Source: Physcia stellaris
Taxonomy: Eukaryota > Ascomycota > Lecanoromycetes > Caliciales > Physciaceae
Direction of reading: 5' to 3'
NCBI GenBank assembly: GCA_018902385.1
Contig: JABSSW010000020.1
Span: 1-64,000, forward strand
Length of the DNA stretch: 64,000 nucleotides
This document shows positions 1 to 64,000 of the stretch, one piece after another. The position numbers and the translations under genes are program-made. Each line of letters begins with the position of its first letter. Position 1 is the stretch's first letter. The notes under the pieces were generated by a model. The model saw only the letters and a list, made by a program, of their open reading frames with translations. It was not told the DNA's origin and did not search any database.

Positions 1-1433
1 AATTGATTTGAATATTCAAACGATGAAAATTCGAATAAAAAATTGAAAATTTTGAATGTCGAACATGATCAAATTTCGATATTTTCGACGTACGTTGCGT
101 TAATGATTTGAATTTTCATAAATGTTTTCGAGGAAAATTGATTATCATTATTTCATTTTCGAAATAATTCAAATGTTATATCGACGAGATTGAATATGTT
201 TAATTGTTTTTTTTTTTCAATTCAGCCGATTATTGTCGTGATCATAAATCGAGCAATTTCAAATCGTCGTTGTTAATCGTGAGTTTATCGTGAACGTTGA
301 TTTTTCACGTGAATCAATCAAAATTCACATCGTTCGTGAATTTATCGAAATTCGAAACGTTTGTTCGTGCGTTTTTTTTTCGAGAATTTGACAAAATTTG
401 TAACGATCGAATCGTCATCAATAAATTTTTTCGTCATTATCGATATTGTTTGAATTTTCATTTGAATCGAGATTGAAAACACGTTCAAAACGACGAATTT
501 CATTCAATTTGATCAAATCGTTATACTCAATACGTTTGTTAATGAATTAATTTATCATTCGCTTTTTTTTCTCGAACGTTTTAAATTTGTCGCGTATTTG
601 TTCAAAAATATTATCGATATCGAATAGATTTTTTTTTTGAATTTTGAACAATTTGACGAATTCGTGAAAATTCTTTAAAACGATCAGATATTTGTCTCGA
701 TCAATGCGTAAATTATTGAACACGTTCAAAAAATCGTCGAAATAATATTGAATTCAATATTTCAATTGACGAACGATTTTTATGTTCAAAAAATGCGTGA
801 AATCGTCGTTCTGATTCGACACAATGTTTGAAATAAAAAAAAACTGACGAAATTTGTAACGAATCGTGAATTTTTTATCGATTTCGTGAATTTCGTTCAA
901 CATTTGTTCAACGTTTTTTTGTATCTCGTCGATATTCAAATTTTGACGAAATGAATTGAATGAAATTGTTTCATGATGATTGCGAATCATTTCGAAAAAA
1001 AAATCGTCGTCGTTTCGTCGTTTTTTATCGTCGAAAAATTCGTCGTTTGCGTGTAAATTCGATTTGTAATTACACGATTTTCGTCGTTTGTTTCGTCAGA
1101 AAAATTTTTCGTCGTTTGTTTTTCACGAAAAATTTGATCGATTTGAAGTTTTATTTTTGAACGCTCGCGTATCACGACGAGCGATAAAAATTGAAAATTT
1201 ATTGTAATATCATGAATCGTGTTTGTATGATTGTATTGATTGATTAATTAGACGAAAAACAATAAATTTGCAAAACAAATAGATATAAAATGTTGAAATT
1301 GCAAACAATGTGCGACGTCAAATTTCAAATCACGTTAATTTCGACGTAAAAATTAAAACATAATTCGTTGTTCGATCACATATCATATCAATTATTTATT
1401 TGTCAAATTTATTTGTCAAACATGTTCGTAACA
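1..1433 (-). mobile_element. 5' part of a RIP-degraded gypsy LTR retrotransposon, runs off left edge
   Basis: This minus-strand element has its 5' LTR at 1203-1433 and continues leftwards into the leader and gag. The degraded reading frame on the minus strand at 754-990 (starting MIRNHHETI) matches the start of the frame at 8461 in the full-length gypsy element further right, and the leader next to the LTR matches base for base apart from transitions. It is therefore the same family as the element at 7961-20730, inserted in the opposite orientation. Many stops interrupt every frame. The sequence has almost no CC, CT, AG or GG dinucleotides. The 3' part lies outside the window, so completeness cannot be judged. 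Confidence 0.85.
1203..1433 (-). repeat. LTR of the left-edge gypsy element
   Basis: Read on the minus strand this 231-bp sequence starts TGTTACGAACATGTTTGAC and ends ATGATATTACA. It aligns along its whole length with the LTR at 7961-8202. The ends are the usual TG...CA. Confidence 0.88.
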
Positions 1434-2104
1434 CATATCGTTAAAAAATCAATCAATTTTTTTGCAAATATGCACAAAATGTATTTATAAATTTACGAAC
1501 TTTTTTGTTGCAATGTCGTTGAACGATAATATTGTTATTGAATAAATTTTGTTCAAACGCATAAATTGAAAAAATGCAAAAACGATGTTTGAATTACGAA
1601 AATTGTTCAATGAAAATTCGTTCGTTTTCGAAAATTATATTCAAATTTGAAAATTTTTAATTTTGATTCGAATAAGAAATTGTTATATTGATATTAAAAT
1701 CGTCGAAATGAAAATATTTAAAAAAAATCGTATTAAAATAAATTCAAATTCAAATAAAAACAAAATGAACATAAAATCGAATATATTTCAAACAATAATT
1801 TACGAATACGTTTATCAATATATGCGTGCGATTACATCGATGTCATTTCGTAAATTTTCAATGACACACGAAAATGATTTTATTAACGTATATAAATTTT
1901 GTTGTTTATTATGTTCATTTGATTTTTAATCGTGTTCGTTGTTATGAAAACAAAAATTACAATGAACAAATGTTTGAAAAATTAATTCAAAAATTTCTCG
2001 ATAATTTCAAAAACAAAAACAAAAACAAATTTGTAATTGAAATTAAATCATTTTTAAATTTTTGTGAAAATTTAAATCACAACGAATTTGACATGTAATT
2101 TATT
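1434..2104. other. AT-rich sequence with no recognised gene
   Basis: This stretch is hypermutated AT-rich DNA. Together with 6042-6600 it is the older sequence into which the short LTR element at 2110-6036 inserted. Short open frames at 1663-1929 and 1874-2098 (+) show no domain I recognise and look like the by-product of low stop density in Lys/Asn/Phe-rich sequence. It may be the inside of an older transposon. Confidence 0.5.
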
Positions 2105-2109
2105 TAAAT

Positions 2110-2290
2110 TGTAAAACGCGTGTCTAAAATTCAATAAATAACATAACGAAAATATTTGATTTAGAAAACAAATATGTATACGATGATCGAATGTCAAAAT
2201 AAAATGTATGTCAAATCAACATTAATTCACATCAGTATTTTCGTTGATAAAATAAAATTTTAATCGAGATTTTCAAACATGTTCGTAACA
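2110..2290 (-). repeat. Left LTR of element B
   Basis: This 181-bp LTR starts TGTAAAACGCGTGTCT on the plus strand and ends CATGTTCGTAACA. It matches the split right LTR of the same element. Confidence 0.85.
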
Positions 2291-3900
2291 TTATTTTTTT
2301 TTAAATTTCGTTTCGAAACGATTATTTTTTCTTCTGATCGATCGACATTGCGAAAAGAATCATCGACGATGATTCAAATATTTGTTTGATCATAATTGAC
2401 GTTAAAAATTTCAAAACAAATGCGATAAACGTGAAAAAATAAATGCGAAAACAAAAAACGCGAAAACGAAAACAAAACATATATGCGAAAACGAAAATGA
2501 AAATCTTGTTGAAAATTTTGATCGCGAAAATATTTGCAAATTAATATAATGAAACGATCGATGTTTCAAAATTAAACAGAAACAAAAACAACAAAACGAT
2601 ATCGATTTCGCGAGCGTATGTTGTTTCAAATTTTTCGAATTTGAATTTTTCGAGTTTTTATTAATCGACGCGTTCTGATTGATTGCAAATATTCGAGATA
2701 TGACGTGTTGACGATCGACAAACAGACAGACAGAAATTTGTGAAAAAGACGAGCTGAATTGACTGCGTGACAAATTCACATTGATTGTTGTTTTTCATTT
2801 TTTCATGTCATTTGCTTTCGTATCGCTGTATGTAATAGATTCATTTTCGTTGATGTTGATTGCAAAGATGTAAAAATGAACACATGCGTTTTTGAAATCG
2901 TTGTAACAAATTCATTGAAATCGATGCGAACTCGTTCGTAAAATGTCATTGAAACAAAATTACTAGTCGTTGTAGCGAATTCATTAAATGTCATCGAAAC
3001 GAGCAAATCGCTGAAACAAAAACGAAACGAAACGAAATTCAAATTTTTTTGTTTGATGTTTTGAATGATTGTTTGTTGATTTGAGATAAATGATTTGATG
3101 TGTGTGATTTCTATTTTTCTTTTTAACAAACGATGTTTCAACGTTTCAAAAAGATGATTATTGTAGAAATCATTCGATGAATGAGTTGATTGATTCGAAA
3201 AAACAAAAAAATCGTTTATTGATTGAATGTCGACTGATTTCGACGAACAAAAAAATCGACTATTGATTGTCGTTGTAGCAAACTCACTGATTAATTGATT
3301 TTTAAAACAAAAAAGTCAATTGTTGACGATCGTTTCGTTGACATGAAAATGTTTTATGTAAAATTTTCATTCAATTCACGAAAACGTCGTGTTTCGTGAT
3401 TTTTTTCAAAAGAATTTTCGTTTCGTGAAAATTCGTTTTGTTATTTCATTCACGAAGATTCGTTTTGTTGTTTCGTGATTTTTCTCGAGAGAATTTTCGT
3501 TTCGTTGATTTGAAGATGTTTTATGTAAATTTTTCATTCAATTCACGAAAATTCGTTCTGTTGTTTCGTGATCTTTTTCTAAAAAAATTTCACATTTTGA
3601 CGATTTTATTTAACTATTCGCGTATTTCGACGAGCAATTTTTGCAAAATTTGATCGAATGTCAATTAATTTTGCAAAACTCAAAGCGAAAAATTTTGTTG
3701 TGTTAAAAACGTGAAAATGATCTCGTCATCGTCACGACGAATTGATAGAAAATTGCGTTGAAAACGTTATCGTCGCAAATTGATTGAGATTTCGTGTTGA
3801 AAATGAAATCGTCACGAATTGAATGATCGCGTTTTTTTTTACTCGTTGATTTTGCAAATGTGAAATTTACATCGTTCGTCACGATGAAAATCAAATATAA

Positions 3901-3977
3901 TGTAAAACGCGTGTTTAGAATTCAATAAATAACATAACGAAAATATTTGATTTAGAAAACAAATATGTACACGATGA
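3901..3977 (-). repeat. Right LTR of element B, first piece
   Basis: It matches the first 77 bases of the left LTR and stops exactly at the GATGA target site (3973-3977) where element C begins. The rest of this LTR resumes at 5931. Confidence 0.85.
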
Positions 3978-4145
3978 TGTAAAACGCGTGTCTAGAAATC
4001 AAATAACATAACGAGAATATTTGATCTAAAAAACAAATATGTACAGATAAAAATCGAAAAATATGTGTAAAGTTTGCGAAAATTAAATTCTAGTCACGTG
4101 CTTTTTTCAATTTTGCGACAATGTTTTCAAAACACGTTCGTAACA
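3978..4145 (-). repeat. Left LTR of element C
   Basis: This 168-bp LTR starts TGTAAAACGCG and ends CGTTCGTAACA. Most differences from 5758-5925 are C/T or G/A changes at CpT or ApG. Confidence 0.87.
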
Positions 4146-5267
4146 TTATTTTTTTCTTTTTTTCAAGTTTCGTCTCGAAACGATTATTCATTTTTTCTAT
4201 CGATCGACATTGCGAAAAAATTCATTGATTGTGATTCAAATATTTGTTTAATCGTGATTTACGTTGAAAATTTCATGACAAATGCGATAAACGTGAAAAA
4301 ATAAATTCGAAAACAAAAAATGTGCGAGAAAAAGACAAATAAATATATGCGACGAGAATGAGAATTTTGATCGCGAAAATATCTGCAAATTAATATGCAA
4401 AAACGATCGATTTTTCGAACAAAACAGAAACAAAAACAGCAAAACGATATCGATTTCGCGAACGTGTGTTGTTTCAAATTTTTCGAATTTGAATTTTTCG
4501 AATTTCTATCAATCGACGCGTTTTGATTGATTGCAAATTATAAAACGAAAAGTCGATTAACAAAATATTGACGTATTGACGACGACAAAAAATTGCGAAA
4601 AAAACGAATTGAATTGATTGCGTAACAAATTCACGTTGATTGTTGTTTTTTATTTTTTTATGTCATTTACTTTCGTATCGTTGCTTTGATATAATAGATT
4701 CATTTTCTTTGATGTTGATTGCGAAAATGTAAAAAATCGAACGCATACATATTGAAATCGTTTTAATCGATTCATTAATAGAATTTCATTGAAACAAATT
4801 CATTAATCATTGTAGCGAATTCACTAAATGTCGTTGAAACGAACAAATCGCGAAAATTAACGAAACGAAACGAAACATAATTCAAATTTTTTGTTTGATG
4901 TTTTGAATGTTGATTTGTTGATAAATTAAATGTGAAATTGTTGTTGATGTAATTTTTTTTTTTTTTATTAAACGATGTTTCAACGTTTAAAAAAAATGAT
5001 TATTGTAAAGATTTTCGAAAATAAATGAATTGACAAATTCGAAAAAACATGAAAATCGTTTATTGATTGAATGTCGAAAACTCGAAAAAAAAAATCGACA
5101 ATTGACTGAATGTCGATTGATTTCGACGAACAAAAAAATCGATTCTTGACAAATCGTCATTTTCGCAAATTTATAATCATTTTCGCTGATTCACGATGCG
5201 CATAATGAAAATGAAATGCAATCATCGTTTTCAAAAAGAAAATTTCAAATCGACGATTTTCTTTTGA

Positions 5268-5490
5268 TTCGCGTATTTCTACGAATGATTCGACGATTTT
5301 TTTTTGATTTGCGTATTTTTACAAATGATTTGACGATTTTTTTTTGAACATTCGCGTATTTTTACGAGCGATAAAAATTTTGTTTCTACTCGTTCTTTCT
5401 ACGAGCAATCGATTTTTTTTAATTTCGCGTATCTTTACGAAATTGACGATTTTATTTCGTTTGCTCGCGTATTTCGACGAGCAATCTATT
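5268..5490. repeat. Array of short hairpin repeats in the leader of element C
   Basis: Units of the form TTCGCGTATTTTTACGAA or CTCGCGTATTTCGACGAG recur about every 40-60 bp, separated by T-rich GACGATTTTTTTT stretches. Each unit is an imperfect inverted repeat (CGTA...TACG) with a short loop. Similar arrays lie at 3598-3640 and 6785-6925, in the matching places of the other short elements. A single related unit lies beside the LTR in the gypsy leader (around 1160-1190 and 8220-8245). Confidence 0.7.
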
Positions 5491-5757
5491 CGAAACAAAG
5501 AATTTGACGAGTGTCAATTAATTTCGCAAAACTCAAAACGAGAAATTTGCTGTGCAAAAGACAATGAATCATCGTCATTGCGAATTGATGAAAATTTCGT
5601 GTTGAAAATGAAATCGTCACGAAATTGATCGAAAAATTCGTGTTGAAAATGTGTAATCGTTACGAATTGAACGATTTTGTTTTTTTTTTATTCGTTGATC
5701 GTTTGCGATAACGAATGTGAAATTTACATCGTTCGTCACGATGAAAATCAAATATAA

Positions 5758-5925
5758 TGTAAAACGCGTGTCTAAAAATCAAATAACATAACGAGAATAT
5801 TTGATTTAAAAAGCAAATATGTACAAATGAAAATCGAAAAATATGTGTAAAGTTTGCGAAAATCAAATTCTAATCACGTGTTTTTTTCAGTTTTGCGACA
5901 ATGTTTTCGAAACACGTTCGTAACA
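5758..5925 (-). repeat. Right LTR of element C (5' LTR of the minus-strand element)
   Basis: This is the 168-bp partner of 3978-4145 with the same ends. It is followed directly by the AATGA copy of the target site and then by the remaining piece of element B's LTR. Confidence 0.87.
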
Positions 5926-5930
5926 AATGA

Positions 5931-6036
5931 TCGAATGTCAAAAATAAAAATGTGTGTCAAATCAACACTAGTTCACATCAAGATTCTCGCTGATAAGATA
6001 AAATCTCAATCGAGATTTTCAAACATGTTCGTAACA
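5931..6036 (-). repeat. Right LTR of element B, second piece
   Basis: The sequence resumes the LTR of element B at the base where 3977 left off, after the repeated target site. It ends CATGTTCGTAACA, followed by the TAAAT target copy. Confidence 0.85.
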
Positions 6037-6041
6037 TAAAT

Positions 6042-6609
6042 ATCGATCAATTATTTGTTAAAAATTTGATAATAAACGAAAAAATGAAAATTTGTTTTTG
6101 TTTTTCGAAATTTCTTTGCATATTGTTGATTCATTTATATCAATAATGTTATTCATTTAACATGAATTATTTAATATTCGAAAATTGTTTGCATAATCAA
6201 ACATTAATTTTTTTTGTTATTTTTTTTACGATAAAAATTAAAATTAATCATCAACATTAATTAAATTGAACGTATTTTTTTGAAAACAACATAAAACGAA
6301 CGAATATAAACGATAAATCATACGATAATCAAAATTAATTGTTAATTCAAAAAACGAAAATAAACAAATTATATTTACATGCGTTTTGATGTGAAATTAT
6401 AACGTCGTAACAACAAATGTTTTTCGATAAATGAAAATTTTGTTTCAACATAAAATGTTTGAAATCGATTACAATTTTTTGATGTTATGTTTTATGAATT
6501 CGATATTGCTTCGAATATTATGTAAAAAAACTAAAAATGTTAAAAATTGATTTCAAACGTTTCAAACGTTTTGATTAAAATCGATTCGATTTCAAATGAA
6601 TAAACAATA
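6042..6609. other. AT-rich sequence with no recognised gene
   Basis: This is hypermutated sequence between element B and the partial element D. I see no LTR ends, coding remnant or tandem repeat. It continues the older sequence interrupted at 2105. Confidence 0.5.
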
Positions 6610-7391
6610 AAATATTTTTTCGACACGATACGTCAAATGAAAATAAAATGCAATGATCGTTAAAAAAAAACTTTTTCATTAACGCAAATTCACGATCATT
6701 TTCGTTGATTTACGTTGCGTATAATGAAAATGAAATATATTCATCGTTTTCAAAAAAAAAATTAATTGACGATTTTTTTTAAATTTGCGTATTTTTACAA
6801 ATGATTCGACGATTTTCTTTTGACTCGCGTATTTTTACGAATGATTCGACGATTTTTTTTTGATTCGCGTATTTTTACGAATGTAATTGACGATTTTATT
6901 TTGTTTATTCGCGTATTTCGACGAGCAATTCACTATTTATCGAAACAAAACGTTTGATCGAATATCAATTAATTTCGCAAAATTCAAAACGAAAAATTTT
7001 GTTGTGTTAAAAACAATGAATTATCGTCATTGCGAATTGATAAATAATTGCGTTGAAAACGTTATCGTCGCAAATTGATTGAAATTTCGTGTTTAAAATG
7101 AAATCGTCACGAATTGAATCGTCGTGTTTTTTTATTCGTTGACGATATTAACGAATGTGAAATTTACATCGTTCGTCACGATAAAAATCAAATATAATAT
7201 CAAAAATCGTATTTGATTAAAAAATAAACAAATAACAAAACGAAAATATTTGATTTAAAAAACAAATATGTACACGAAAAATCGAAATGTTTGAAATAAA
7301 TTGTACGTTAAATTCAAATCACGCTAATTTTTATAAAAATTTTCGTTGATAAAATAAATTTTCAATTGAGATTTCAAATATGTTCGTAACA
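6610..7391 (-). mobile_element. Partial copy D of the short LTR element family
   Basis: From about 6610 the sequence follows the inside of element C (around 5150-5757), including the hairpin array. It then continues into an LTR at 7198-7391 that ends ATGTTCGTAACA. The left half and left LTR are missing or too degraded to see. No coding remnant is visible. Confidence 0.7.
7198..7391 (-). repeat. LTR of partial element D
   Basis: This 194-bp sequence is most like the LTRs of element B in its right half. The expected TG start reads TA here, consistent with C:G to T:A mutation. Confidence 0.65.
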
Positions 7392-7960
7392 CGTAATAAT
7401 TTTTTTTTGCACATTTCGTGATTTCGTCGCGATTTTTTTCTGTTTGATTTTTCGTCGTTTTGATTTTATTGATGTCGAAATTCAAATTTGATAACAACGA
7501 CGACGAACAAAAATTTATCAAATTCGTATTTATAATCGAAAAATAAAAAAACGTTTTTATTTTCGATAACAATCATTTGATGTAATGATAAAAAAATTAA
7601 TTGTTGCGAAAATATAAATATTTCATGAATATTTTTTTTTGAATATTACATTACGAAAGTTTTGAAATTTATTTATCGATAAATTATGAATAAATTATCG
7701 ATTATCGAATGAACGATTCGAAAATTGATTTTGTCAAAAATTTTACAAATAATAAAATGTATTTTACGAATAATGACAATTTTCTTTTTTTTGTTTTTGT
7801 GCATTGAATTTTTTTTATTTTTAATGAAATTGTTATTTGTATTTTTATTTTCATTACGTTTTTTTTTCGACGATTTGTATTTTTTGATCGCGTTTGTAAT
7901 AATCGTTACAATTCAATTTTCAAATATGCGATTGTAATAATATGTTCGAACACGTGTAAT
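7392..7960. other. AT-rich sequence with no recognised gene
   Basis: This is hypermutated sequence between element D and the LTR of the full-length gypsy element. Short open frames on both strands are Phe/Leu/Asn/Lys-rich and show no recognisable domain. Confidence 0.45.
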
Positions 7961-8202
7961 TGTTACGAGCATGTTTGACAAATAAATTTGACAAATAAAT
8001 AATTGATATGATAAATGATTAAACAAATATGTTTAAATCGAATTATGTTTTAATTTTTTGACGAAATTAACGTGATTTGAAATTTGACGTTCGCACATTA
8101 TTTGCAATTTTATCATTTTGTATTTATTTGTTTTTGCAAATTTATTGTTTTCGTTTAATTAATCAATAATACGTTTATTCAAACACGATTCATGATATTA
8201 CA
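7961..8202 (+). repeat. 5' LTR of the gypsy element
   Basis: This 242-bp LTR begins TGTTACGAGCATGTTTGAC and ends CATGATATTACA. It matches 20489-20730 and, in reverse, 1203-1433. Confidence 0.9.
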
Positions 8203-8460
8203 ATAAATTTTCAATTTTTATCGTTCGTCGTGATACGCGAACGTTCAAAAATAAAATTTCAAATCGATTAAATTTTTTTGACGAGACAAACGACGAAAAA
8301 ATTCTGTTGATCAAACAAACGATCAAAAATTTTTTTGACGAAACATTTGACGAAAATCGTGAAATAACAAAACGAATTTTCACGTAATCGACGATAAAAA
8401 ACGAAAATTGATTCGATTAATTTTTTTTTTTTTATCATTTTCAATTTTTCATTTTCAGTC

Positions 8461-9814
8461 ATGATTCGAAATCATCACGAAACAATTTTTTTCGAATTTT
8501 TTATTTCGATAAAACAACGTTTCAAAACGTTACGCGTCAACGTGAATCGTATGTTGCATAAAATTAACGACAATTTTTTTGACGAAAATTTCGTTGATCA
8601 ATTCAAACGTCGTCGATTTGTATCAACGATCGAATTCATAAAAATGAAAAATGAAAAAATTATTCATTTTTTGAATATCGTCATTATCGATCAATTGAAA
8701 TGATGAATCAATCATAAAATCGTCGATTTTTTAAAAAAATTTGATCGATTACGCATCGATCGTAACAATTATTTGAACGTTTTAATTCAATATCAAAATT
8801 TGTACAATATTGTCAACGTCGATCGTGACGAATTGATCAATACGAATGTCGAATTAAATGAAATTCGTCGAAAATTAAATATTTTGAAAAACGAATACGA
8901 AAAACAACGTGATTTACTTTTGATCAAACAAAAAAATTATATTTTTTTGAAAAAAATCACGACGTTTTGTTAATCAAAATTCGCAATTGTGCACGAAATT
9001 TTGACGTCAACGATAAAAAAAACGACGATAAAATCAACGTAATTCATTTTTTTCAAAAAAATAAACGACGTTTCAAAACACATTCAAGTTTTTTTAAATT
9101 TATCGATGAAATGAAATTCATTTGACGTGTTTGAAAAACAAAAATACACGATAAAATGACGATCAACGTTGATCATTACGACACGAACATAATTGCAATT
9201 ATTATTGTGATTGATTGAATTGAAAATGATATCGATAATCACATACAATCGATTCGTGATATTAATATGAATCATTTCAAAATTTAACATATGATGTTGA
9301 AATTTTTGAACATTATTTACGAAAATTTTGATTTCAAACGCAATATGCGTAATCAATTTCAAACATTAATCATGAATATTCAGAATTTTCAATTTTTTTA
9401 TTTCATTTTTTTTCGTTTTAGCAATTCAATTGATTATAACGAAATCATCAAAATCGAAAAATTGATGAACAAAATTTTTTGAAATTTAAAAAAAAAACGA
9501 TGAATGTATATTCACGTGAATTTATCACGTTCGATGAAATTCGAATCATTTTGCAACAAATATACAATCGACAATCGAATTTTCGAAAAAAAAAAATCGC
9601 GACACGTCAACAACGTTTTGAATTATTTCAATTCAAATCAATTTTTGTCGTCTCGATTTCGATGTTTTTTACGAAATTTGTCATTTCGACTTTTTTCGTG
9701 AAATTTACAATTCATTTTTATTTCAACGTTGAAATCAAAATTCGTGATTCGATGATCGACAAATTAATCGTCACGAACAAATGTTTCACATATGATGAAA
9801 TCGAACATATTTGA
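8461..9814 (+). pseudogene. Gag remnant of the gypsy element
   Basis: Open pieces at 8461-8703, 8773-8973 and 9479-9814 lie where gag is expected between the 5' LTR and the protease. The first piece (starting MIRNHHETI) is matched by the minus-strand copy at 754-990. The proteins are rich in Lys, Asn, Phe and Ile, reflecting the mutation bias. I cannot make out a CCHC zinc knuckle, so the gag call rests on position and on the shared copy. Confidence 0.6.
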
Positions 9815-9983
9815 AAAAAATGTTCGAACGTTCACAAACATTAAAAACGTCATTGACACAAAATGCAAATGTTTTATATGAATTTGATTGACGAATCGAA
9901 CGATTTTGAATCGAAAAATTAACAATTCACATCGAAAACGCGATTGATGAATATTTAAAAATTTTTTTATTCACGATGATAAT

Positions 9984-10271
9984 ATGTTTGATTTTTTCAT
10001 CAAACGATTTTTAATCATCAATTGTACGTTATCATTCAACGATAATAAACATAAATTAAAAATTTTAATAAATATTGATGCAATTGATTATGCATTCATT
10101 GATAAAAAAATCGCGCAATTTGTATACAATATGTTGAACATGAAATTTATATTTTTATTGAAATCGAAATCATTGATTGAATTCGACAATCGTCATATTT
10201 TTTCAATAATTCACGTCATATATTTTAAATTAACGATAAAATTGCATTTCGAATTGATCGTTTTTTGTTAA
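9984..10271 (+). pseudogene. Retropepsin-like protease remnant of the gypsy element
   Basis: The 95-residue open piece follows the gypsy protease pattern: a strand, the active-site loop, then YAFIDKKIA and, later, EFDNRHI. The catalytic Asp-Thr/Ser-Gly triplet reads Asn-Ile-Asp, explained by G-to-A and C-to-T changes, so the protease is inactive. It sits upstream of the reverse transcriptase, as expected for Ty3/gypsy pol. Confidence 0.75.
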
Positions 10272-10822
10272 TCATCGATTTGAATAATCATTCGATAATT
10301 TTAAAAAAATCGTGAATAAACAAACATGAAATCATATTGAACATGATTTACGATAAATTAATTTTCAAATTGTTCAAATGTAATTATCATGGCAATATAG
10401 TCAATCAAATTGTTTAAATTCGACGTTTGAAAATTTTCAAATCAAATCGTCGATAAAATGTATTTAATTGACGTCGTGATATCGTATTATCGCAAAAAAA
10501 CAATTCGAAACATATAACGATAATAAAATTTCGATATATTATTTTATTTCGTTTCAAAATCAAATTTTTATTTTTTACAATTGAGAACGAATCAAATGTA
10601 TTCGATTCGAAATATTTCGAATGTTTAATTCATTCGAACGTCGATGACGATAACGAATCGTTAATCATTAAATCAAATAATTCAAAAATTGATATCACAA
10701 CGATTACGAAAACGACATTCGTTAAAAAAACAAATTTGAAAAAACAACGCAACAAACGTTAAAAAATCAAAAAACAACAATTCGAAATTTTTTCATTTTC
10801 GAAATTAAATTCAGACGATTCA

Positions 10823-12440
10823 ATGAATATCGCGATGATTGATGCAATTTTTTTTTGTTTGTTCGTCGATTTCAAAAATCGAAAACAAAAAATGCAATGT
10901 TTTTTTATTACGATCAATCAAATCGATGTCGCGTTCAAAACATTGCGAACGAATTTTAAATCGTTGAAAATTGTTGTCATGATTAAAAAAATTTTGAAAC
11001 ACGAACAAATCAAATCGATTTTTGAACGTATAATGAAAAAAATATCGAAATATTTCAAACATTTGTCAAAAATATTCGATTTTCAAAAAACAATTGAATT
11101 GTCATCGTATCGATTTTACGATCACAAAATCGAATTTTTAAACGATAACAATACATTGTTTCGAAACAAAATATATTCATTGTTCGAATTCAAATTTCAA
11201 AAACTCAAAAAATATTTGAAAAATAATTTTCAAAAAAATTTTATTGTATTCAATCAAATTATTTACATTTCGTTCGTTTTATTTGCAATCAAATCAAATG
11301 ATCAATTACGTTTGTGTGTGAATTATTGACGATTCAATCACATCACGAAACGCAATCGATATTTCATTTTTTTGATCGAAAAAATTTTAATTAAAATGCA
11401 AAATTGCAAATATTTGATCAAATTGAATATTATATCGATTTTCAACAAATTTCGAATGAATGAAAAAAATAAAAAATTCATCACGTTCGTTATTTTTATG
11501 AAATCGTACAAATATCAAATATTATTTTTCGAATTGATCAACGAATTCGCGAATTGACAACATTACATGAACGATTTGTTATTCAATTTTTTGAACGATT
11601 TTTGTCAAATTTATTTAAATGATATTTTCATTTACAACAAATTCAAAAAAAAAACATATCGTTCACGTTCGCAAAATGTTGAAAAAATTCAAAAAAATCG
11701 AATTACAAATGAATATTGAAAAATGCGAATTTTTCAAAAAAAAAATGACATTTTTGAACGTCATATTATCGATAAATAATTTTCGCATGAATTCAAAAAA
11801 AAATAAAAATTATTGTCAATTGAAAACGTTTTACGAATTTGAAAAAAATACAAATTTTCGTGAGTTTCGTCAATTTTTACAAACGATTCATTCGTGATTT
11901 TTCGAAAAAAACTCGAATTTTTACTCGAATGATCAAAAAATTCGTGAATTTCGAATGAATTATTGAAATCGAAAAAATTTTTAATTTTTTCAAAAAAACG
12001 ATGACGAAAATTTTCATATTACAACATTACGATCGAATCAAACAAATCATTTTGAAAATTGATTTTTTGATTACGTCAATGCGAAAATATTATTTCAATA
12101 CGACGACGAAAAATTTTTGCATTTTGTTGTTTTTTATAATCGCAACATGATTTCAATCGAATGCAATTACGAAATTTACGACAAAAAATTGTTGATCATT
12201 ATTCGTTGTTTAAAATATTGACGTTTTGAATTTGAAAATATTGAAAAATCGATCAAAATTTTCATCGATTACAAAAATCTGAAAATTTTCATGACGTCAA
12301 AAAAATTCATTTTTCGTCAAATTCGTTGAACAAAAATTCTTTCGAAATTCAACATTGTCATTCAATTTCAATTCGAAACTCAAAACGTTAAAACAAATGT
12401 TTTGATTCGTATGTTTGATTTTTGATTCAAAAACGAAATT
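10823..12440 (+). pseudogene. Reverse transcriptase and RNase H remnant of the gypsy element
   Basis: The piece at 10823-11329 ends in the family's entry region (LPKGxxYPLS-like, then LRLCVNY). The piece at 11372-11557 gives the palm segment. Around 11605-11640 the catalytic YLDD box reads YLND, an Asp-to-Asn change. The piece at 11619-11897 continues with the thumb (EKCEFFKKKMTFLNVI). RNase H follows: a CNYEIYDKKLL segment near 12164-12200 and a FIDYKNLKIFMTSKKF segment near 12260-12315. Stops interrupt the frame throughout. The order and spacing are those of Ty3/gypsy pol. Confidence 0.85.
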
Positions 12441-12639
12441 GATGAACGACATCAATATCGAAAACAAATATTATTTATTTCGAAACGATTCGAAATTGAC
12501 ACGATAAAATTTGACAAATCTATTTACGAACGAGTTTTGATTATCAATAAAATTGACGATGATTGCACGATATATCGTGAAATTATCGAACAAAATTTCA
12601 CATCAATGAACGAAATCGATTTACGAAATTGCAATGAAA

Positions 12640-12818
12640 AAAACGATGTTTTATATCGAAATGATCGATTATAAATGTCTGTCGACGTTTTTTTATTCGT
12701 TGATTTTTTTAAAAAAATTTATGAATTTTCGATTTCGAAACATTCAAATTTTAATCGTATGAAAAATTTTATATGTCGCGATTATTATTGATTCATCATG
12801 CGCAAATTCGTTCGTCGA
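12640..12818 (+). pseudogene. Integrase N-terminal zinc-binding remnant, cut by the nested element
   Basis: A YYxxxMRKFVRR segment near 12783-12818 matches the start of the integrase zinc-binding domain (YYWPxMRxxVxxYV). The frame runs straight into the GTCGA target site at 12814-12818. The continuation (RYIRNYYKCQRTK) is found at once after the nested element at 18841. The nested element therefore inserted between the His and Cys halves of this domain. Confidence 0.8.
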
Positions 12819-13109
12819 TGTAAAAAATTCAGAATTCAAAACAATGCGAATCGAATTTCGATTGTCAAAAATTCAAATCAAGCAAATTCGAAATATCAAT
12901 TCACGAAACGATCAATTTCATCATATTAGTCATTCGACATTTATATCGCATATCGACTAAATATTCATGCGCAAAAATTCAGAAATTCGTATCATTGAAC
13001 AAACAAAACGAATATATATTGCGAAATTTGCAAAACAATTAGTTTTGCAATTATTAGTTTAGTAATACTATTGTTTTTGTTATACATTTCTGATGTCATG
13101 CTTCTTACA
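12819..13109 (+). repeat. 5' LTR of the nested element
   Basis: This 291-bp sequence differs from its partner at about 22 positions by my count. Nineteen differences are transitions, 17 of them at CpT or ApG. Confidence 0.92.
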
Positions 13110-16100
13110 TTTTAATAACTATAATAATCATTAAATTAGCATCACTCGTGTATAGTTACAATAAGCATCTACAACGACTGAACGTGTAATCATGTTTTCA
13201 ACGTTCGATCGAGACGAGAAACTTTCTCTACGATAGTTGAAACGAGAAATTTCTTCTTCGAAAATTGAAACGAACATCAGATCGAGAATGAAAAGTTTAC
13301 AGTTATATAGTTGAGTATCGCAATTCAAACTGATTGTATTATTATATTATCACGTATTGTTCAATCTAAAAAACGAACACGAATTCGAAAAATTACAAAA
13401 CAACAATTTCAAAAGCAAATTATCTATTTTCATGCAATGACAAATTTACATACGTGATTTCAATCATTTGATTTCATTGACATTTTCAGCGACAAGCGTC
13501 AATCGTTTCAAATTTTCTGATTATTCATAGCAATATTCATAGATCAAAAACGTCAACACGATTGAAAACGTCTGCGCAGTTTGTCAGAACATTCATGCGA
13601 AATGAATTTTTCATATTCTATACTCGAGTCATCGAAACAACTCGAAAACAACGATCTTGATCGTTCTATTCTTTCTGCGAATTCTCAAGAGTCAAAATAC
13701 GAACAGCATGATCAATAGCTTAATCGAACGACGATTTCAACAGAAACATAACAAAATGTTCTCGTCAAGAAACAACTCGAGAGCAACGATTTCGAACGAC
13801 TTATTTTCAATTCAAAACATCAAGAAACACGCGATTAAGAAATCGCATGAACGCAATACAACGACTTGAACAAACATTTCTACAATGATCGAATCTCGTA
13901 GAAATGCAATATAGTTCGAAATCAAAAAGACGATAGAAAATTCACTTTCGATAAAACTAATAGAAGTCAATTAAAATTCAACGATCTATATCGTTTCACA
14001 AAAAAGATGTCGATTTTGCAAAAGTTGATCAAAAAGAAACAACAATTGAATCAATTGATCATTTTTAGTCAAATTCGCATAGTGAATGTTCTCATAAGCA
14101 ATAAGTAATAAGCAATAATAGCAACGAATTTTCGACGACGAGTCATGTCGACGTTCGCATCAAACGTTGTCGCAAAAAATTTCGCATGACTAGTTGCAAT
14201 AAAGAGATTAATTGCAATAAAATTCAAGATATGAATAGAAATCAAAGCGATTTCGAATTTGAGAGCAGAAATCAATCAAAAAACAATGTTTTTATTGAAT
14301 TCAAACAGTTTCGTTTCGAATTTCTAGTCACGATGTTGCGACATTGAACAACAGTCAATTCAAATCATTGACGTCTGCTTCGTACGAATGACATTTTCGA
14401 ACGAGACTAACTACAGATGCTTCTAAGAATGATTTGAGTCAATCGATATTTCGTGAAATTGCTCTCAATGCAACTGTCAAATCAAGATGAATATATCGAT
14501 CAAATTCGATTTTGACATTCTTCGATAAATTTTTTCGTCATAAATCGTTTCGAGCACACGAAACAGAAAGAATTCGTCGATTCTATTATCTATAATCAGA
14601 ACAGAATCTTTGATGTGTTCGTACGAATACTCGATAGCGAAAATACGACTTCGCATGAAGCGCATTTTGAACAATAAACTCGCATAAATCAAGTTCTGTC
14701 GAAAATCAAAACATGTGCAGAAATATCAACAAGAAAACATATGAATCATTTCGTCACGAATTATGAATTTGACGAACATACAATTTGTTCAATGAACACG
14801 CAACAGATTTGACGAGTTTGCGATATGTTTGACGAGTTCGCGATGAATCACAAACATGCGATAAATCAACAATAAATCATAGATTTGAAATTGAACAAAA
14901 GATCATTTCATAATTCTATTTACTTTTTATCAAAAAATGACTAACGATACAGAGAATTTATCTGAGCGAATATTTGACGAACAATTCTATCAAATCTAAA
15001 GTCGAATAAAAAGACGTCAATTATATCGTTTCGCTCATAGAGATTATTTTGATCATTATAATTCGACGAAGATCGCAATCTGAATAAATCATATGATTTA
15101 TACAACAGACTTCGCGTAAAACAAATGATGAACACAAACGACGTCGATAATATCATTCGATTGCTCGACGAAAACTCATCGTTTAAACGAGATTATATGA
15201 ATGTCGCATGCAACAAACTTCGTACAGAACAAACAAATTACAACAAACAGCAAAACATAAAAACAAAACGACGTTAAAACGAATCATAAATTGTTGAATA
15301 CATTTATTCTTTGTCTCACTGATTCGTTTACACAATAGATTTCTGACGAAACGTTTAGAACTATACGTTATAATGTATTTCAAACAAATACGATCATGAA
15401 GTTTATAGTATAAACTTCTTGAATTTCGTCGTTTTCTCAAAAAATTTCATAAATAAAAATCAAGACAAACAACGATCAATCGCGTCGACGAAACGCACTT
15501 TTGAAATATTTTCGAAAACATCTATTTTGCATTAATTCGATTCGACTAAATCGTTCGTGTGAAAATCAACGCTAAAAACAAAGCAATAAGTCATAGCATC
15601 ATCGAAATCTCAGCAAACTCGACGAACAAAAAAACTTTTGAAAAAAAAATTTCAAAAGCAATCGTCAATCTAGCGTAATTGCAACGATTTTTGCAAACGT
15701 CTCGATCAATTCGAATTTGTCAAATGCGAAAATCACGATCAAAATGATTTTTTAAATCATTTCGATGCGATTCAAGCAATGATGCAAATCAAATCAAGAA
15801 AAAAATTATAAATTTTTCAAAAAATTTCTATCAACTACAAAAAGCAAAGTGAAGTCATAAATTCTTCGAGAAATTTCTGACAATTGAAACAAATATTTCA
15901 TGTTCGAGTGAATTTCAAATCAAAGCGAAAATTATGTATTTTTCGAATGATTTTCAAAGAGAAGTTATAGATTCTTCGAAAGACTTTTGACAACGAAAAA
16001 CTAATTTTGCGAATGATTTCGTTTTTGTTTTCGATTGTGCATCAAATGTGATCGTCGATGAATATAGTATAATAATATTGATGATGCGCGAATTCTTCAA

Positions 16101-16539
16101 TCTGATCGAGAAATGATTGCGACAGAAACATATTCACGAATCTAAAATATAAAAAACATTGACGACGACTTTCAAATATAAATGTTTGATTCGTTGATTG
16201 TCGCAAGTCTCGTGTGCAATTGTGAAACAAAAATTAGTTATTTCTGATATAATCACGCTCGCATTGACAACAAAACGAAATTGAAAATTAGCAATTGCTT
16301 TACGTGTCATCAAGTTTTATAAAAGAAAACGTCACTCGTGCGAAACAATTTTTGATCGAGCATTTCGATGCGAAATACATTTTGAAATCAATACGAAAGT
16401 ACTGTAAATCGAATAAAATTATAAAGAAAACGTCGTCAATACAGACAATCTCTGATCGAGCACGTTGATGAAAACATCATCGAACATATGTGATCGAATC
16501 AAACAAACGAAATGATTCATCAAACATCGAACACGATTT

Positions 16540-16920
16540 CAGCATGCACGCACGATCATAAATTGCGAAATAAAAATCATTTGTAAAAACATTTCGTCAA
16601 AATCTGAACATGAATGAAAACTACGAAATTATAAATTACGAAATATAAAGTCGCTGCAAACATCTCGTTAAAATTTGAACATGTCGACGAAATCATAAAT
16701 TGCGAAACATAGATCGCTTGTCAAGACATCTCGTCGAAATTTAAATATATTCTCATATGTAATAAATCAATCGAAAGCGAAATATAAATCAATTGTCAAA
16801 ACATCTCGTTCGAATTGAAACATACGACTAAAAATCATATTCGAACATGCGTAAAATCATAAACTGCAAAATATAGTGTCATTGCAAAGCATTTTGACAA
16901 AATTAAAACAAACATAAATC
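16540..16920 (+). repeat. Degenerate direct repeats, about 65-75 bp, inside the nested element
   Basis: Five or so copies of a motif like ATAAATTGCGAAATATA followed by ACATCTCGTCGAAATTTGAA recur in the same orientation. Copies differ mainly by transitions and short length changes. Confidence 0.65.
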
Positions 16921-17489
16921 AAAAAATAGCAAACAAACGTTTCATAATAAATTATACGATAATTTGTCGTTTCAATTCAACGAGCATTGACATAAACTAA
17001 TTTTATATGAATTTCATAGAAAATTGTCAAAGAATAGAGCATGATTTGTGCATTCAAAAATGATGATCGCAAAAAATCTCGCACATCGCACAACTTCATG
17101 ACTTTTTCTCATCATGCAAAACACAATAGATAAAACAATTGATTGTCATGACAGAATCTTTTTGCAAAACATGCACAGTTCAAACGAGAATATCATCGTT
17201 CGAAAATTTGTCGAAATTTTTCAAAGATAAATCAAATATGCAAATTATGCGCGAATAATTCGCGATACTTTTAACAACATAAAATCTGAAAATAGTGAAA
17301 AAAATGCGAACAAACATCGAAAATGTTTTCGTCTCGCTTTTTCACGAAATTATAACTAAAAAAGAAAAAAGAATTTCGTTAATTAAAAACAAACATTTAA
17401 AATTCATGCATCAATTAAAACACATAAACATTGACAAAAAACAATTATAAATATAGTCAAGTCGCGAACAAATCGTGCAACAGATTCAA

Positions 17490-17890
17490 ATCAAATCATA
17501 TAGCGAAAATTTATTTGAAAATCAACAACACGACAGTACAATTTTCTTGATAATACAATCGATTCGAGACAATCTAATATCATGACGCGTTCGATGTCGA
17601 GCGCTTTTCGCAAATATAATTCATGTAACAAAACAATTGATTCAAATAATCATATCAGTATCACGACGCGATCAACGTTCTATAGTAACGAATAAATGAT
17701 CAAATCATGATCAAATCATACAGCGAAACGTATTTGATAATCACTATCGCAACGTTTATACGTGCGATTTTTCTGATGATACAATTGATTCAAACAATTT
17801 CGCATCGAGCATCATGACGCGCTCAAACGTTTTGTAAATGCAATTCATTTGATAAAACAATTGATTTGAATAGTCGTTTCAAATTTCATG
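17490..17890 (+). repeat. Two copies of a roughly 200-bp direct repeat inside the nested element
   Basis: The blocks starting near 17490 and 17710 share ordered motifs: CAAATCATA(T/C)AGCGAAA, then a TGATAATACAATTGATTC-like motif, then ATCATGACGCG, then AACAATTGATT(C/T)(A/G)AAT. They are imperfect and in tandem. Confidence 0.65.
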
Positions 17891-18549
17891 TCACAATTTT
17901 ATGTTGTTTATTGTCTAAAGCTTACGACGCATGAAAAACTGAATCGTGTTAAAAACATTTTCAAAAACTATTGCTCGATCTAATCGAGCGATAAATATTG
18001 TGAATGTGAATGTAAAATAAAATGCAAAAAATCGAGAAAATTTCGAAATTTGATATTCAATGCGATCGCGATTACGACGCTTTTCGCGTTTAATTTTTTT
18101 TTCATCAATTCATCGATTTCGACATACGAAAAAAGAAAATAGAAAGATATAAATTGATTCAAATTCAAATTTCACTGTCACACAATTAATTGTCAATTAT
18201 CAAATCGAGAGTCGTGAATTATACGAAATCAAATTCTCGATTTTGAAAACAATTGACAGTCGAGTCATCAAATCATGCTTTTTTTGAATCATTCACGAAA
18301 ATGATTTTCAAATTTTTAATGCAAACTGACTAGAAATCGAAAAGAATAATAAAATATTCGATGCGAAAATCACGATCACAATGATTTTTCAAGTCATAAA
18401 ATGATTTTCGATGCGAAAGTCACGATCACAATGATTTTTCAAATTTCATGAATACAACATACGAATACATCAATCTATGAATCTTTGTTGCAAAGCATAC
18501 GAAAAATATTGATCATTTCAAAAAATTTCGATGTTTAGAAAAAAACGCG

Positions 18550-18840
18550 TGTAAAAAACTCAAAATTCAAAACAATGCGAATCGAATTTCTATTGTCAAG
18601 AATTCAAATCAAACAGATTCGAAACATCAATTCACGCAACGATCAGTTTCATCATATTAGTCACTCGACATTTATATCGCATATCGATTAGATATTCATG
18701 CGCAAAAACTCAAAAATTCGTATCATTGAACAGACAAAACGAATATATATTGCGAAATTTGCAAAACAATTAATTTTGCAATTATTAATCTAGTTATACT
18801 ATTGTTTTTGTTATACATTTTTGATGTTATGCTTTTTACA
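18550..18840 (+). repeat. 3' LTR of the nested element
   Basis: This is the 291-bp partner of 12819-13109. It is followed directly by the GTCGA target copy and by the resumed integrase frame. Confidence 0.92.
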
Positions 18841-20040
18841 GTCGATACATACGCAATTATTATAAATGTCAACGTACGAAAATTTTCAAAAATCGAAAAA
18901 ATGATTTATTCATTTTTTTGATCATTTTTTTTGCAACGTTGAATCGACATATTCATGAATTTTATCATCGAGTTATTCGACGTTTACGATCACAACATAA
19001 TTTGCACGATAATCGACAAATTTAATAAAAAACGTCATTACGTGTTTTGCATCGTCGACGATGAAAATACAAATGCAAAAATCACGATTAAAATATTTAT
19101 CAATTACGTGTTTCGTACGCATGAATTATTTTTTTTTATAACGTCAAATCGAAAATCGCAATTCATATCATTCGTTTGACAAACATTTTGCAAAATTCTC
19201 GACATCAAATGTAAATTTTTTATCGTTTTTCATTCAAAAATCGATAAACAAATCGAAAAAATCAATCAAAATATCGAAAAACAATTGCGACAATATTGCA
19301 ATTACATGCAAAACGATTGAAACGTTTGATTATTCATGATCGAATTTGCAAACAACAACGCGATATTTGCAACAACAAAATTATCATCATTTTTCATCAA
19401 TAAAAGTTTTCATTTTCGTATGAATTTTTCATCAAATTTTATTTCGTATGTTATAACGAAAAAACGATTTTTGATTATCAAAACAAAAAATATTATCGAC
19501 ACGATGCAAAATATTTTCAATTACGTACGAAATCATGCAAAAATGATTCAAAAACGTATAACAATTCAAATCAACAAACATCGAAAAATCGTGAAATACG
19601 TCGAAAAAAATTTCGTTTTTTTGAATCGACGAAACATCAAAACGATCAAATTATCTGACAAATTTGATGACAAAAAACTAAATTCGTACAAAATATTAAA
19701 ACGTAAAAACAATTTTTATCGATTCGAATTGTCAAAAATTATGCGAATTTACGATGTGTTTCATTGTTGACTTTTTCGCAAAAATTTTCGTGATTCATTC
19801 GAAAATCAAATCAATAAATTTTTTGATTTCGTCATAATCAACGAAAATTTCGAATGAAAAATGAACGATATTTTGAAATTTCGATATCATTACAATCGTT
19901 TTCAATATCGTGTCAATTGATTGAATTGATTTCATGATCGAACGTGATATTATGTCGACAACGAAAAATTCGATAATGTTCGCGATGTGATGAACGATTT
20001 TCATCGTAATCATTTTACGACAATAGATTCAAAATCGTTC
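18841..20040 (+). pseudogene. Integrase core, C-terminal region and chromodomain remnant of the gypsy element
   Basis: The frame resumes after the nested element with the Cys half of the zinc-binding domain. The core follows at 18955-19179, starting MNFIIELFD where the family has an MDFI start, so the first catalytic Asp reads Asn. The piece at 19336-19770 ends with the GPY-like C-terminal region (KIMRIYDVFH). Near 19850-20010 is a segment with RYHYNRFQYRVN, a WY pair and VMNDFH. This is the layout of a chromodomain, which in chromoviruses directs integration towards modified chromatin. Stops interrupt the frame. Confidence 0.8.
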
Positions 20041-20488
20041 AAAACGTTGATTTTAATATTTCAAATCGTCGTCAACGAATCAAATTTTTCAACGAATCGT
20101 CGTCGTTTTCGAAAAAAAATTGTCATGTTGACATTAATCGAAATTATTTTCAATTAATATTTGAAATTACGAATTCAATGTTCATTCATTCGTTTTTAAT
20201 TTCACAATTTTTATTCAACATTTCAATTTTTATTATCATTTCGATGTTATTTACAGTCAAAATTTACATCGCATAAAAAATTGAATCGTGTCAAAAACAT
20301 TTTCAAAAATTGTCGTCAAATTTTATCGAGCGTTGAAATGACAATAAAACACTAAAAGATGAAAAATGATAATCGTGAAATTTTTGAATTTTGCAATTAT
20401 ACGAATTGATCAACAAAATTCTCAATAACGTTTTCAATTTCGAAACAACAACGAATCGTCGAAACGACGTTCGCGAAAAAAAAAATAG

Positions 20489-20730
20489 TGTTACGAACAT
20501 GTTTGACAAATAAATTTGACAAATAGATAGTTGATATAATAAATGATTAAACAAATATGTTTGAATCGAATTATGTTTTAATTTTTTGACGAAATTAACG
20601 TGATTTGAAATTTGACGTTCGCACATTGTTTGCAATTTCATCATTTTGTATTTATTTGTTTCTGCAAACTTATTGTTTTCGTTTAACTAATCAATAATAC
20701 GTCTATTCAAGCACGATTCATGATAATAAT
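20489..20730 (+). repeat. 3' LTR of the gypsy element
   Basis: The sequence starts TGTTACGAACATGTTTGAC and matches 7961-8202. The last bases (CATGATAATAATCATAAT) depart from the 5' LTR end, so the boundary is approximate. Confidence 0.85.
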
Positions 20731-21019
20731 CATAATATCACGAATTGATCGATGATGATGATGAATTATTGAAATCGAAAAAATCGATTTTATCGATTTA
20801 GTTTGCAAAAACAAAAAATGCATTCAAAATTTCGCGCGAACGCGAAAAGATACAAATCGAAATATTGTTAATTTTGAATAATAGTTGATTGTGATTTTGT
20901 TATTTTGTTTTAGTTTTCAACGATTTGACGAGAATAACGCTAATATTTCGACAAAATCGATGTTTGAAACAGACGTTTGCAAGACGCGATCCAGCAATGA
21001 AGCAGTGCTTTGATTTGAA
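20731..21019. other. Edge of the AT-rich block
   Basis: AT-rich sequence without gene or repeat signal continues to about 20935. Composition then switches within a few tens of bases to ordinary genic sequence containing CC and GG. The stop codon of the next gene lies at 21020. Confidence 0.6.
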
Positions 21020-31284: not shown

Positions 31285-32811
31285 AGCTCAAACAGAACCG
31301 ATTTGACTGCTTGTCTTTGAAGATCCACATGACAAAAGTCCCTGTTCTTTTCTAGGCTAGACATCTCGCCTAGGCGTTTTCTCCGGGATTAGTACAGTAA
31401 CCTTTGATAGGATTTGTCTTGCGAACTTCCATTCTTGACTCGTAGTCAAATCTCATTTAAATGTGTGGGTTTTCTAGATAAGCGAGGAAGCCCATCAAAT
31501 CCTCAGACAAAATCTTGGCCAAACTGTACGGTTGCTTGTTCACTGTTACAGGTGTGGGATCCAGATAGACGGCGAAAGATGACAATGAAGCCCGTAATAA
31601 TGCATCACAGAGAAACAGAGCATTAGAACTGTATTATTCGTGATTTCTTGGAGGAGCGACTAACAGCCATCTCCGACTACCCGAGCGTCTGCGGCTCACT
31701 GCATGCTTCCTGCGGTACACACTCTCAAACGGTACCATCTCTCATCTGTGTGTGACCCTCTCCCCATGCAAGAGCGAGGAATGTATTACGACTCTTCCGA
31801 TATTGAAGTACGAAGGCGGAACAAGCGATCTGAGGAGGCCAATCTAGCAGATAGCCGAAGGGATGGTGCTAAAGTATATACTCCGTATTCCTGTAACGAA
31901 CGCTCCTCGCGCTCGTACCATTTCTAGCCGGTCCTCTGTAAATCATCATAATGCGGACCGTTGAATGGTGGATGACGGCAGGCACACATTAGCCCTGTGA
32001 TAACCGCGGGTTCCTGGTGATAATTGCGTTGAAATGATTCCTTTTCAGGCTCTAGTGATATTGTTGTAGTAGAAACATGTGCGTTAAATTCAAAAACTTT
32101 GCTTATCCGCTCTCGGATCCTCATTTACCTACCTTGTATGTACAACGCACTGTGCTGTATCACGGTCTGACCGTATCACGCATCGGTTCCTGCCGAACAA
32201 GGAATCGTAATAATGCTGCTTGAGAGGCAGCATGTAGATTCGAGGTTGTGTCATCACGGCATGTGAAGGTTGTTCAAGCTTTGCCAATCGTTCCTCCCCT
32301 TGATCCTCATCGGAGAAACTCCAGATATCCAACACATGTTACGACCAAACAAGAATGCACGGTATCTAGCACGAAGGGTCTCACAAAACAAGGGGAAAAG
32401 TCTGATTGCTGGTTGACATCTATAGGAGATGTTGAGACCCGCGAGCCTGGAGGTCGAGGAGTCAGGACGTGTTCCAGACCTTGGGATGCAGGTCTCACCG
32501 GGAAGCGCAGGGACTGATGACGAATAACGAACAGCGCGATCCATGAATGCAGAGGATTGGACGCGAAAGTGTGGCCCGTTAAGGCTAGCTTGAGCGCGTT
32601 CCAACCACAAATTGCTGTTTCGTGGTGGGGTGAGGGGATGCAGCTTGACGATTTCGTGAATTGTCGTCCCGCTCTATCGAAAGAGGAGGATCTCGCTGCA
32701 AGATCACAGGAAGGGAAGGATGGGCATAGTTCTAAGATAAAGGGTGAAGTGTGTGGCATTCATCGGCTTGCTGTCCTTTTATCAGCCTTTGTGTCAAGAC
32801 AAGCTGTTAGA
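31285..32811. other. Intergenic region without a recognised gene
   Basis: This 1.5-kb stretch of ordinary composition lies between the unknown minus-strand gene and a hypermutated repeat. Several overlapping open frames (for example 31703-31927 and 32307-32759) show no domain, intron pattern or family similarity. Confidence 0.45.
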
Positions 32812-32817
32812 GAGACA

Positions 32818-42232: not shown

Positions 42233-42363
42233 GCTTGCCCGACGATCCGATGGGCTTGATCTCTGAGTTGGCTCAATCGTCCAGCATGCAAGCCTCACAC
42301 GCCTCGGCTATACAGCTCCAGCATTCGGTGGCAGTGAGATTGGATTGAGTGCAAAAGAGAATA

Positions 42364-42718: not shown

Positions 42719-42720
42719 TA

Positions 42721-43027: not shown

Positions 43028-43029
43028 TA

Positions 43030-46315: not shown

Positions 46316-46317
46316 TA

Positions 46318-63908: not shown

Positions 63909-64000
63909 GTTTTGAATTTTTTCGACTGCAATATTATTCAAAAAAAAATTCAATTAATCAAAATTTTGTGTATTTTCTGAAAAATTGAACGAAATTTTGA
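63909..64000. other. Start of another AT-rich hypermutated block
   Basis: The last 92 bases have no CC or GG and are very AT-rich, like the first 20.9 kb. The block continues beyond the window. Confidence 0.6.

Follow-up and report, generated by a model that had tools for sequence, protein, structure and literature searches.

The first 64,000 nucleotides of contig JABSSW010000020.1 of the ascomycete Physcia stellaris (Lecanoromycetes, Caliciales, Physciaceae; assembly GCA_018902385.1, forward strand), hereafter the window, open with some 20 kb of AT-rich repeats from which the dinucleotides CC and GG have nearly vanished. This raises the question of what process mutated these repeats and by what rule it selects its cytosines. 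A sequence-only reading had proposed an unusual dialect of repeat-induced point mutation (RIP), in which the mutator prefers cytosine followed by a pyrimidine (CpY) and leaves CpA and CpG intact. Here we show, from mutated and unmutated copies of the same elements, that C-to-T changes fall on CpC and, more slowly, on CpT, with few at CpA and fewer at CpG.

Between positions 250 and 20200 (27% GC), dinucleotide counting finds no CC and a single GG, where base composition alone leads one to expect about 380 and 350, respectively (arithmetic from the counts). CT and AG number 251 and 289 (observed/expected, O/E, 0.26 and 0.28); they are reduced overall, not absent, because CC goes first. CA (1283; O/E 1.21) and TG (1131; 1.24) show no depletion, CG is strongly over-represented (1218; 3.35) and TA is under-represented (1212; 0.46). 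The density of CG, about 61 per kb by arithmetic, is no lower than in genic flanks (46–53 per kb in four of five measured, 35 per kb in the fifth), which argues that CpG is spared. Upstream of 20991 the only CC or GG dinucleotides lie at 132, 226 and 10391, in agreement with the rare exceptions that the sequence-only reading had noticed near 131 and 10391, and the near-absence of CC and GG it described extends throughout the AT-rich repeats; its parallel claim for CT and AG needs qualifying, their loss being partial in 12000–20200 (CT O/E 0.40). Nor is the signature limited to 1–20935, the span for which that reading described it: the tract free of CC and GG runs to 20990, and the same pattern recurs elsewhere in the genome and, within the window, in 42362–46317 and 32807–33705, where CC plus GG number 2 and 9 per kb against 93–122 in four flanks. 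Mutated tracts stop close to element borders. The depletion is absent from neighbouring genic DNA, which is normal (in 46500–64000, O/E is 0.98 for CC, 1.05 for CT, 1.09 for CA and 0.88 for CG).

The rule itself emerges from aligned copies. Twenty-five pairs were tabulated (17 + 8), of which eight close pairs from three element classes were pooled; outside the pool are seven further pairs with the retroelement L005, two comparisons with the window, and the eight most distant pairs, kept out because ordinary divergence blurs the contrast. L005 is unmutated (51% GC, domain without a stop), and its copy L022 differs from it by 915 transitions (C>T or G>A) and only five other point differences, with 13 gap positions and T>C at 1 of 1703 sites. 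Sorted by 3' neighbour, these changes comprise CC>TC at 440/442 sites, CT>TT at 448/461, CA>TA at 26/444 and CG>TG at 0/410, and the two strands are alike (CC 183/183 and 257/259; CT 189/194 and 259/267). The ten derived copies aligned to L005 all concur, with converted fractions of 0.95–1.00 for CC, 0.76–0.98 for CT, 0.03–0.14 for CA and 0.00–0.07 for CG. The same order appears in Copia elements (L036 to L042: CC 226/240, CT 214/357, CA 6/448, CG 0/344; L035 to L046: CC 446/460, CT 371/415, CA 42/477, CG 21/422) and in a pogo-type DDE_1 transposon (L047 to L053: CC 224/280, CT 183/303, CA 20/295, CG 18/310). In the pool, 2821 of 2978 CC sites and 2518 of 3207 CT sites are converted, against 187 of 3456 CA and 90 of 3056 CG. 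The proposed preference for CpY is thus borne out; of the claim that CpA and CpG remain intact, the CpG half holds (0/410 above) and the CpA half holds only in part.

Within the CpY class, CC is converted at 1.5 to 3.1 times the rate of CT in each of the eight pooled pairs. The 5' base has little effect: in the pool, CT is converted in 0.785, 0.820, 0.755 and 0.818 of cases after A, C, G and T, respectively. CCC is converted less often than CCA (0.87 versus 0.98), as expected if a C next to an already made T drops to the slower CT rate. The rare CpA changes favour CpApY (CAC 0.093 and CAT 0.073 versus CAA 0.029 and CAG 0.043), as if a pyrimidine at the next position but one could partly substitute. 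A rule set by the 3' neighbour is the pattern that a cytosine methyltransferase would give.

In the window, the rule can be followed in these features:

227–20990, no strand assigned: block of hypermutated repeats, in which dinucleotide counts find the GG at 10391 as the sole CC or GG
9825–12819, minus strand: remains of a hypermutated reverse-transcriptase element, aligned with L006 and L007, both unmutated
2110–3269, plus strand: hypermutated repeat copy, 77% identical to 3978–5108
3978–5108, plus strand: hypermutated repeat copy, 77% identical to 2110–3269
42362–46317, no strand assigned: element of about 4 kb with terminal inverted repeats at 42362–42543 and 46136–46317 (182 bases, 91% identical), the mutated tract ending near its borders
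32807–33705, plus strand: separate 899-base hypermutated copy within genic DNA, 94.7% identical to 45238–46136 and with relatives elsewhere in the genome

Even at 68% identity, L006 and the relic at 9825–12819 show the same order (CC>TC 383/400, CT>TT 361/386, CA>TA 69/387, CG>TG 36/377). Six copies of the repeat at 45300–46100 are nearly constant in CG (50–54) and CA+TG (95–101), and vary in CT+AG (6–51), with CC+GG at 0–5. Their 15 non-independent pairs hold 749 C/T differences and 107 transversions; 521 of the 749 fall at CT, 42 at CC, 120 at CA and 64 at CG, the last 2 adjoining a gap. These copies differ mostly at CpT because CC is already almost gone. The outcomes that the sequence-only reading had named as refuting are thus not seen: changes in aligned families concentrate at CpC and CpT, with CpA a minor site, and the neighbouring genic DNA lacks the depletion. 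In the element at 42362–46317, some CC and CT are retained in the outermost bases of the terminal repeats. A 900-base piece of the block (4001–4900) has at least 51 matching stretches genome-wide (40 of 247 candidates scored) and the repeat at 45300–46100 at least 44 (40 of 263 candidates scored). An Rfam search of the window gave no match. The genes flanking the repeats include those for a TruD/PUS7-type pseudouridine synthase (23483–25831), a GMC oxidoreductase (40217–41470) and a fatty acid hydroxylase family protein (50900–52465).

The assembly comprises 44.0 Mb in 147 contigs; the published draft, from an ascospore culture sequenced with Nanopore (31x) and Illumina (30x), gives a G+C content of 43.3% (PMC7513301). 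We fetched 30 loci from 150 listed matches to RVT_1 and 22 from 147 listed matches to RVT_2 or DDE_1, and 24 and 17 of these, respectively, are rich in AT and have lost their dinucleotides in the same order. Among the 17, L050 is mutated in patches only; a further locus, L010, is also mutated in patches. GC in the hypermutated RVT_1 loci is 24–37%. Taking genic DNA at about 49% and mutated repeats at 27%, the published G+C value leads to an estimate, not a count, of about one quarter of the genome affected.

The stop codons in these elements carry the same imprint. In the 41 fetched loci with GC below 0.44, the 139 in-frame stops are TGA (131), TAA (7) and TAG (1). When eight unmutated domains (1466 codons) were mutated to saturation in silico, CpY change created 23 TGA and no other stop, CpA change 50 TAG and 31 TAA, and CpG change 22 TAA and 10 TAG. 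Under the genetic code, CpY mutation yields a new stop solely by TGG to TGA, as the data bear out; elements are thus disabled chiefly through missense change, in which Pro and Gly codons disappear, and through loss of regulatory sequence.

Some copies appear to record earlier stages. The Copia locus L036 has 73 GG and 229 CC, with 206 AG and 223 CT, so that GG is depleted threefold and CC is normal; in three unmutated Copia loci GG/CC is 1.04–1.18. L036 has the look of a recent target, with the damage largely confined to one strand and as if only at CpC so far. The database protein P0243, related to a different hypermutated element, has 24 Pro, one Gly and no Trp, a composition suggestive of the residue of one-strand mutation; with L036 this makes two cases and no statistic. 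Relatives were sought with a 344-residue stop-free frame of a hypermutated element that has no Pro, Gly or Trp. Of the 30 retrieved (P0240–P0269), 29 have less than 2% Pro+Gly+Trp and 18 have none, with His, Gln, Cys and Met kept, a combination that is the mark of CpY mutation, though the search itself favours proteins of like composition. Protein databases thus hold frames of hypermutated elements as predicted proteins nearly without Pro, Gly and Trp. The spread of the CpY dialect to other fungi is gauged here through protein composition only.

A PF00145 search of the genome returned three C5-methylase genes, including the RID type, which the sequence-only reading had proposed to look for along with DIM-2. 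One (L002) is a long open gene with a methylase and a DUF7893 domain by Pfam, putatively DIM-2-like. The other two, RID-A (L001, on C6; at least 513 residues, two introns) and RID-B (L003; 932 residues), are 39% identical across the catalytic part. Their motif VI reads EET and EQT, respectively, and both have PPCQ; the RID/Masc1 group is set apart by having EQT or EET instead of ENV in motif VI (PMC6709928), and the marks of that class (EQT/EET in motif VI, PCQ in motif IV) are present in both. A quick 60-row tree places RID-B in a clade whose named members belong to Lecanoromycetes, and RID-A in a nine-row group with one other named row, Heterodermia. The latter group lies in a 19-row set with Aspergillus and Histoplasma DmtA (Shimodaira–Hasegawa-like approximate likelihood ratio support 96; several branches are long and the placement is provisional). 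RID-A thus sits nearer to Eurotiomycete DmtA than to the Lecanoromycete RID clade in this tree, and may be an old paralogue or have arrived by transfer. For RID and Masc1 themselves, methyltransferase activity is described as undemonstrated in the accessible part of one account (PMC2432034).

The copies demonstrate the substitution spectrum, the 3'-neighbour rule, near-independence of the 5' base, near-saturation, action on both strands, confinement to repeats and reach across several element classes. With two RID/Masc1-class genes and a DIM-2-like gene present, the best reading is that a RID-class enzyme preferring a 3' pyrimidine carries out RIP. The AT-rich blocks would be transposable elements altered by a RIP-like, repeat-directed C-to-T process that targets cytosine before pyrimidine, CpC faster than CpT, on both strands until CpY is almost exhausted, and that hits CpA at a few per cent, mostly as CpApY, and CpG hardly or never. 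The agent would be a RID/Masc1-class cytosine methyltransferase, either RID-A or RID-B, acting premeiotically as in Neurospora, with target recognition presumably shifted from CpA to CpY. We regard this account, in which enzyme and timing are inferred, as probable. Held with little more than even confidence is a wider proposal, that a RID-class enzyme of Physciaceae, perhaps the DmtA-like RID-A with its EET motif, reads CpY, and that this dialect, which would erase CC and GG from an estimated one quarter of the genome, spare CpG and avoid TAA and TAG, is common to related fungi.

Several observations pull the other way. The unmutated loci L006 and L007 (C5, C12) are 94.9% identical over 3477 columns with intact domains, as are L038 and L039 (C8, C42; 96.8% over 3197 columns); both copies of each pair sit in the one genome without hypermutation, so either they arrived recently or duplicates can escape the process. 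Their C/T differences show a mild CpY excess (79/133 and 39/67). In the eight most distant pairs (54–70% identity, window pairs apart) the contrast is blurred, with CA at 0.19–0.29 and CG at 0.13–0.33, and from L010 to L009, a pair at 56% identity in which L010 is itself mutated, the order is nearly gone (CC 8/20, CT 18/69, CA 20/87, CG 24/117). TAA also takes a larger share of stops in the full lists than in the fetched subset: all 297 listed matches hold 838 stops, 695 TGA, 137 TAA and 6 TAG (TGA/TAA/TAG 250/33/3 for RVT_1, 401/101/3 for RVT_2 and 44/3/0 for DDE_1). This indicates that CpA or other change accumulates in older copies; the extra TAA may reflect weak CpA activity there, and any TAG could become TAA by AG>AA.

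Could the same pattern arise by slower means? Methylation of repeats at CpC and CpT, for example by the DIM-2-like enzyme, followed by spontaneous deamination of 5-methylcytosine, would be compatible with the presence of L002 and with the higher saturation of older than of younger copies, but such deamination would hardly outpace ordinary substitution as far as 915 C>T changes against five others between L005 and L022, and CpG, the classic methylated site, is unchanged in that alignment; we consider slow decay unlikely. Slightly less likely still is that the RIP-like process is the work of L002 rather than of a RID. It is a long open gene, and Neurospora is reported to have a second, DIM-2-dependent RIP pathway, yet in Neurospora crosses Rid1 and not Dim2 is required for the shift within repeats (PMC12543289, as far as its accessible text goes), and the tracts here are repeats.

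Editing of element DNA by an AID/APOBEC-type cytosine deaminase would account for C-to-T change near saturation and for the apparently one-stranded damage in L036. AID/APOBEC enzymes, however, read the 5' side of the cytosine, whereas in the pooled pairs the 3' base decides and the 5' base matters little, and both strands and DNA transposons are affected; we give this explanation very little credence. A Pfam search with APOBEC_N found no match, and that search is uninformative. Editing of cDNA only is ruled out, since the damage extends to both strands and to DNA transposons, and pure CpA or CpG RIP is excluded by the alignments, the indices and the types of stop codon. Compositional drift towards AT, or an artefact of sequencing or assembly, would find some footing in the partial reliance of the assembly on Nanopore reads, but Illumina data at 30x were also used (PMC7513301, genome note, in its accessible part), neither drift nor artefact yields full CpG retention with CpY loss, and mutated and unmutated copies of the same elements coexist. 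We attach virtually no weight to either, and plain AT bias or artefact is ruled out by CG at 0/410 beside CC at 440/442 in a single alignment.

The customary tests, which take RIP for a CpA process, overlook this signature. They recognize classical RIP where TA/AT is 0.89 or more and (CA+TG)/(AC+GT) is 1.03 or less (PMC2621366, PMC3897900); the block at 250–20200 fails both (0.46 and 1.32), and none of 56 loci (34 in a first set, 22, L035–L056, in a second) passes both. The GC-rich L033 passes on TA/AT alone (0.96), and none of L035–L056 does (0.36–0.73). The Physcia signature is strong and clean, with targets opposite to those of textbook RIP, and standard indices rate it negative. If the wider proposal is true, index-based surveys would have called such lineages RIP-negative. 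A simple CpY index, (CC+GG+CT+AG)/(TC+GA+TT+AA), is available for rescanning fungal genomes. If RID sets the context, a natural switch from CpA to CpY would help to reveal how RID-class enzymes select cytosines. The case also shows that transposons can be disabled by a mutator that makes few nonsense codons.

In their accessible portions, published accounts report CpA, CpT or CpG as dominant RIP contexts (PMC4352252; PMC2621366; PMC10998396; PMC6180176), mention CpC>TpT double changes alongside classical CpA (PMC8959702), give CpT as the dominant form in control repeats (PMC7882544) and describe one nematode-trapping fungus with CpA less preferred and TA raised (PMC3828140). A kingdom-wide survey of 2025 found RIP-like defences to share a CpA preference and, in its accessible part, has no Lecanoromycetes among 130 species with strong recent signatures (PMC12543289). 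In the literature consulted, subscription papers apart, we found no report of CpC- or CpY-dominant RIP, and RIP is not described in the accessible part of the Physcia genome note (PMC7513301). The description of the dialect as unusual is consistent with these published context preferences.

Comparison with individual systems sharpens the picture. Like the RID-dependent, CpA-directed RIP of Neurospora, the process in Physcia is a repeat-directed C-to-T change on both strands, with RID-class genes in the genome and AT-rich elements bearing stops; unlike it, the target is CpC and then CpT, CpA and CpG are kept, TA is under-represented, stops are mostly TGA and both classical indices fail. CpT-biased RIP is known from Magnaporthe, Botrytis, Sclerotinia, Colletotrichum and Anisogramma (PMC4352252, PMC6180176, PMC10998396, in part), which share with Physcia a targeted CpT and a RID-class gene, Anisogramma having likewise two rid genes and one dim-2. 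There, however, CpT accompanies CpA or is the target in different families within a single genome, TA/AT values, where reported, are elevated, and CpC is not named as dominant in the accessible text, whereas in Physcia CpC leads and CpA is hardly hit. Among lichens, Cladonia rangiformis (PMC12542154), with RID and DIM-2 homologues, and Endocarpon pusillum (PMC3897900) are reported to have strongly AT-rich repeats too, but those of Cladonia go down to 10–20% GC, below the range of the hypermutated RVT_1 loci of Physcia, and Endocarpon scores as classical RIP (1.47 and 0.70). Microbotryum and the rusts offer a further parallel, in which C-to-T change is likewise aimed at elements and tied to one particular 3' neighbour (PMC4352252); the neighbour there is the G of CpG, untouched in Physcia, and those species are described as having only a Masc2-like class IIA enzyme.

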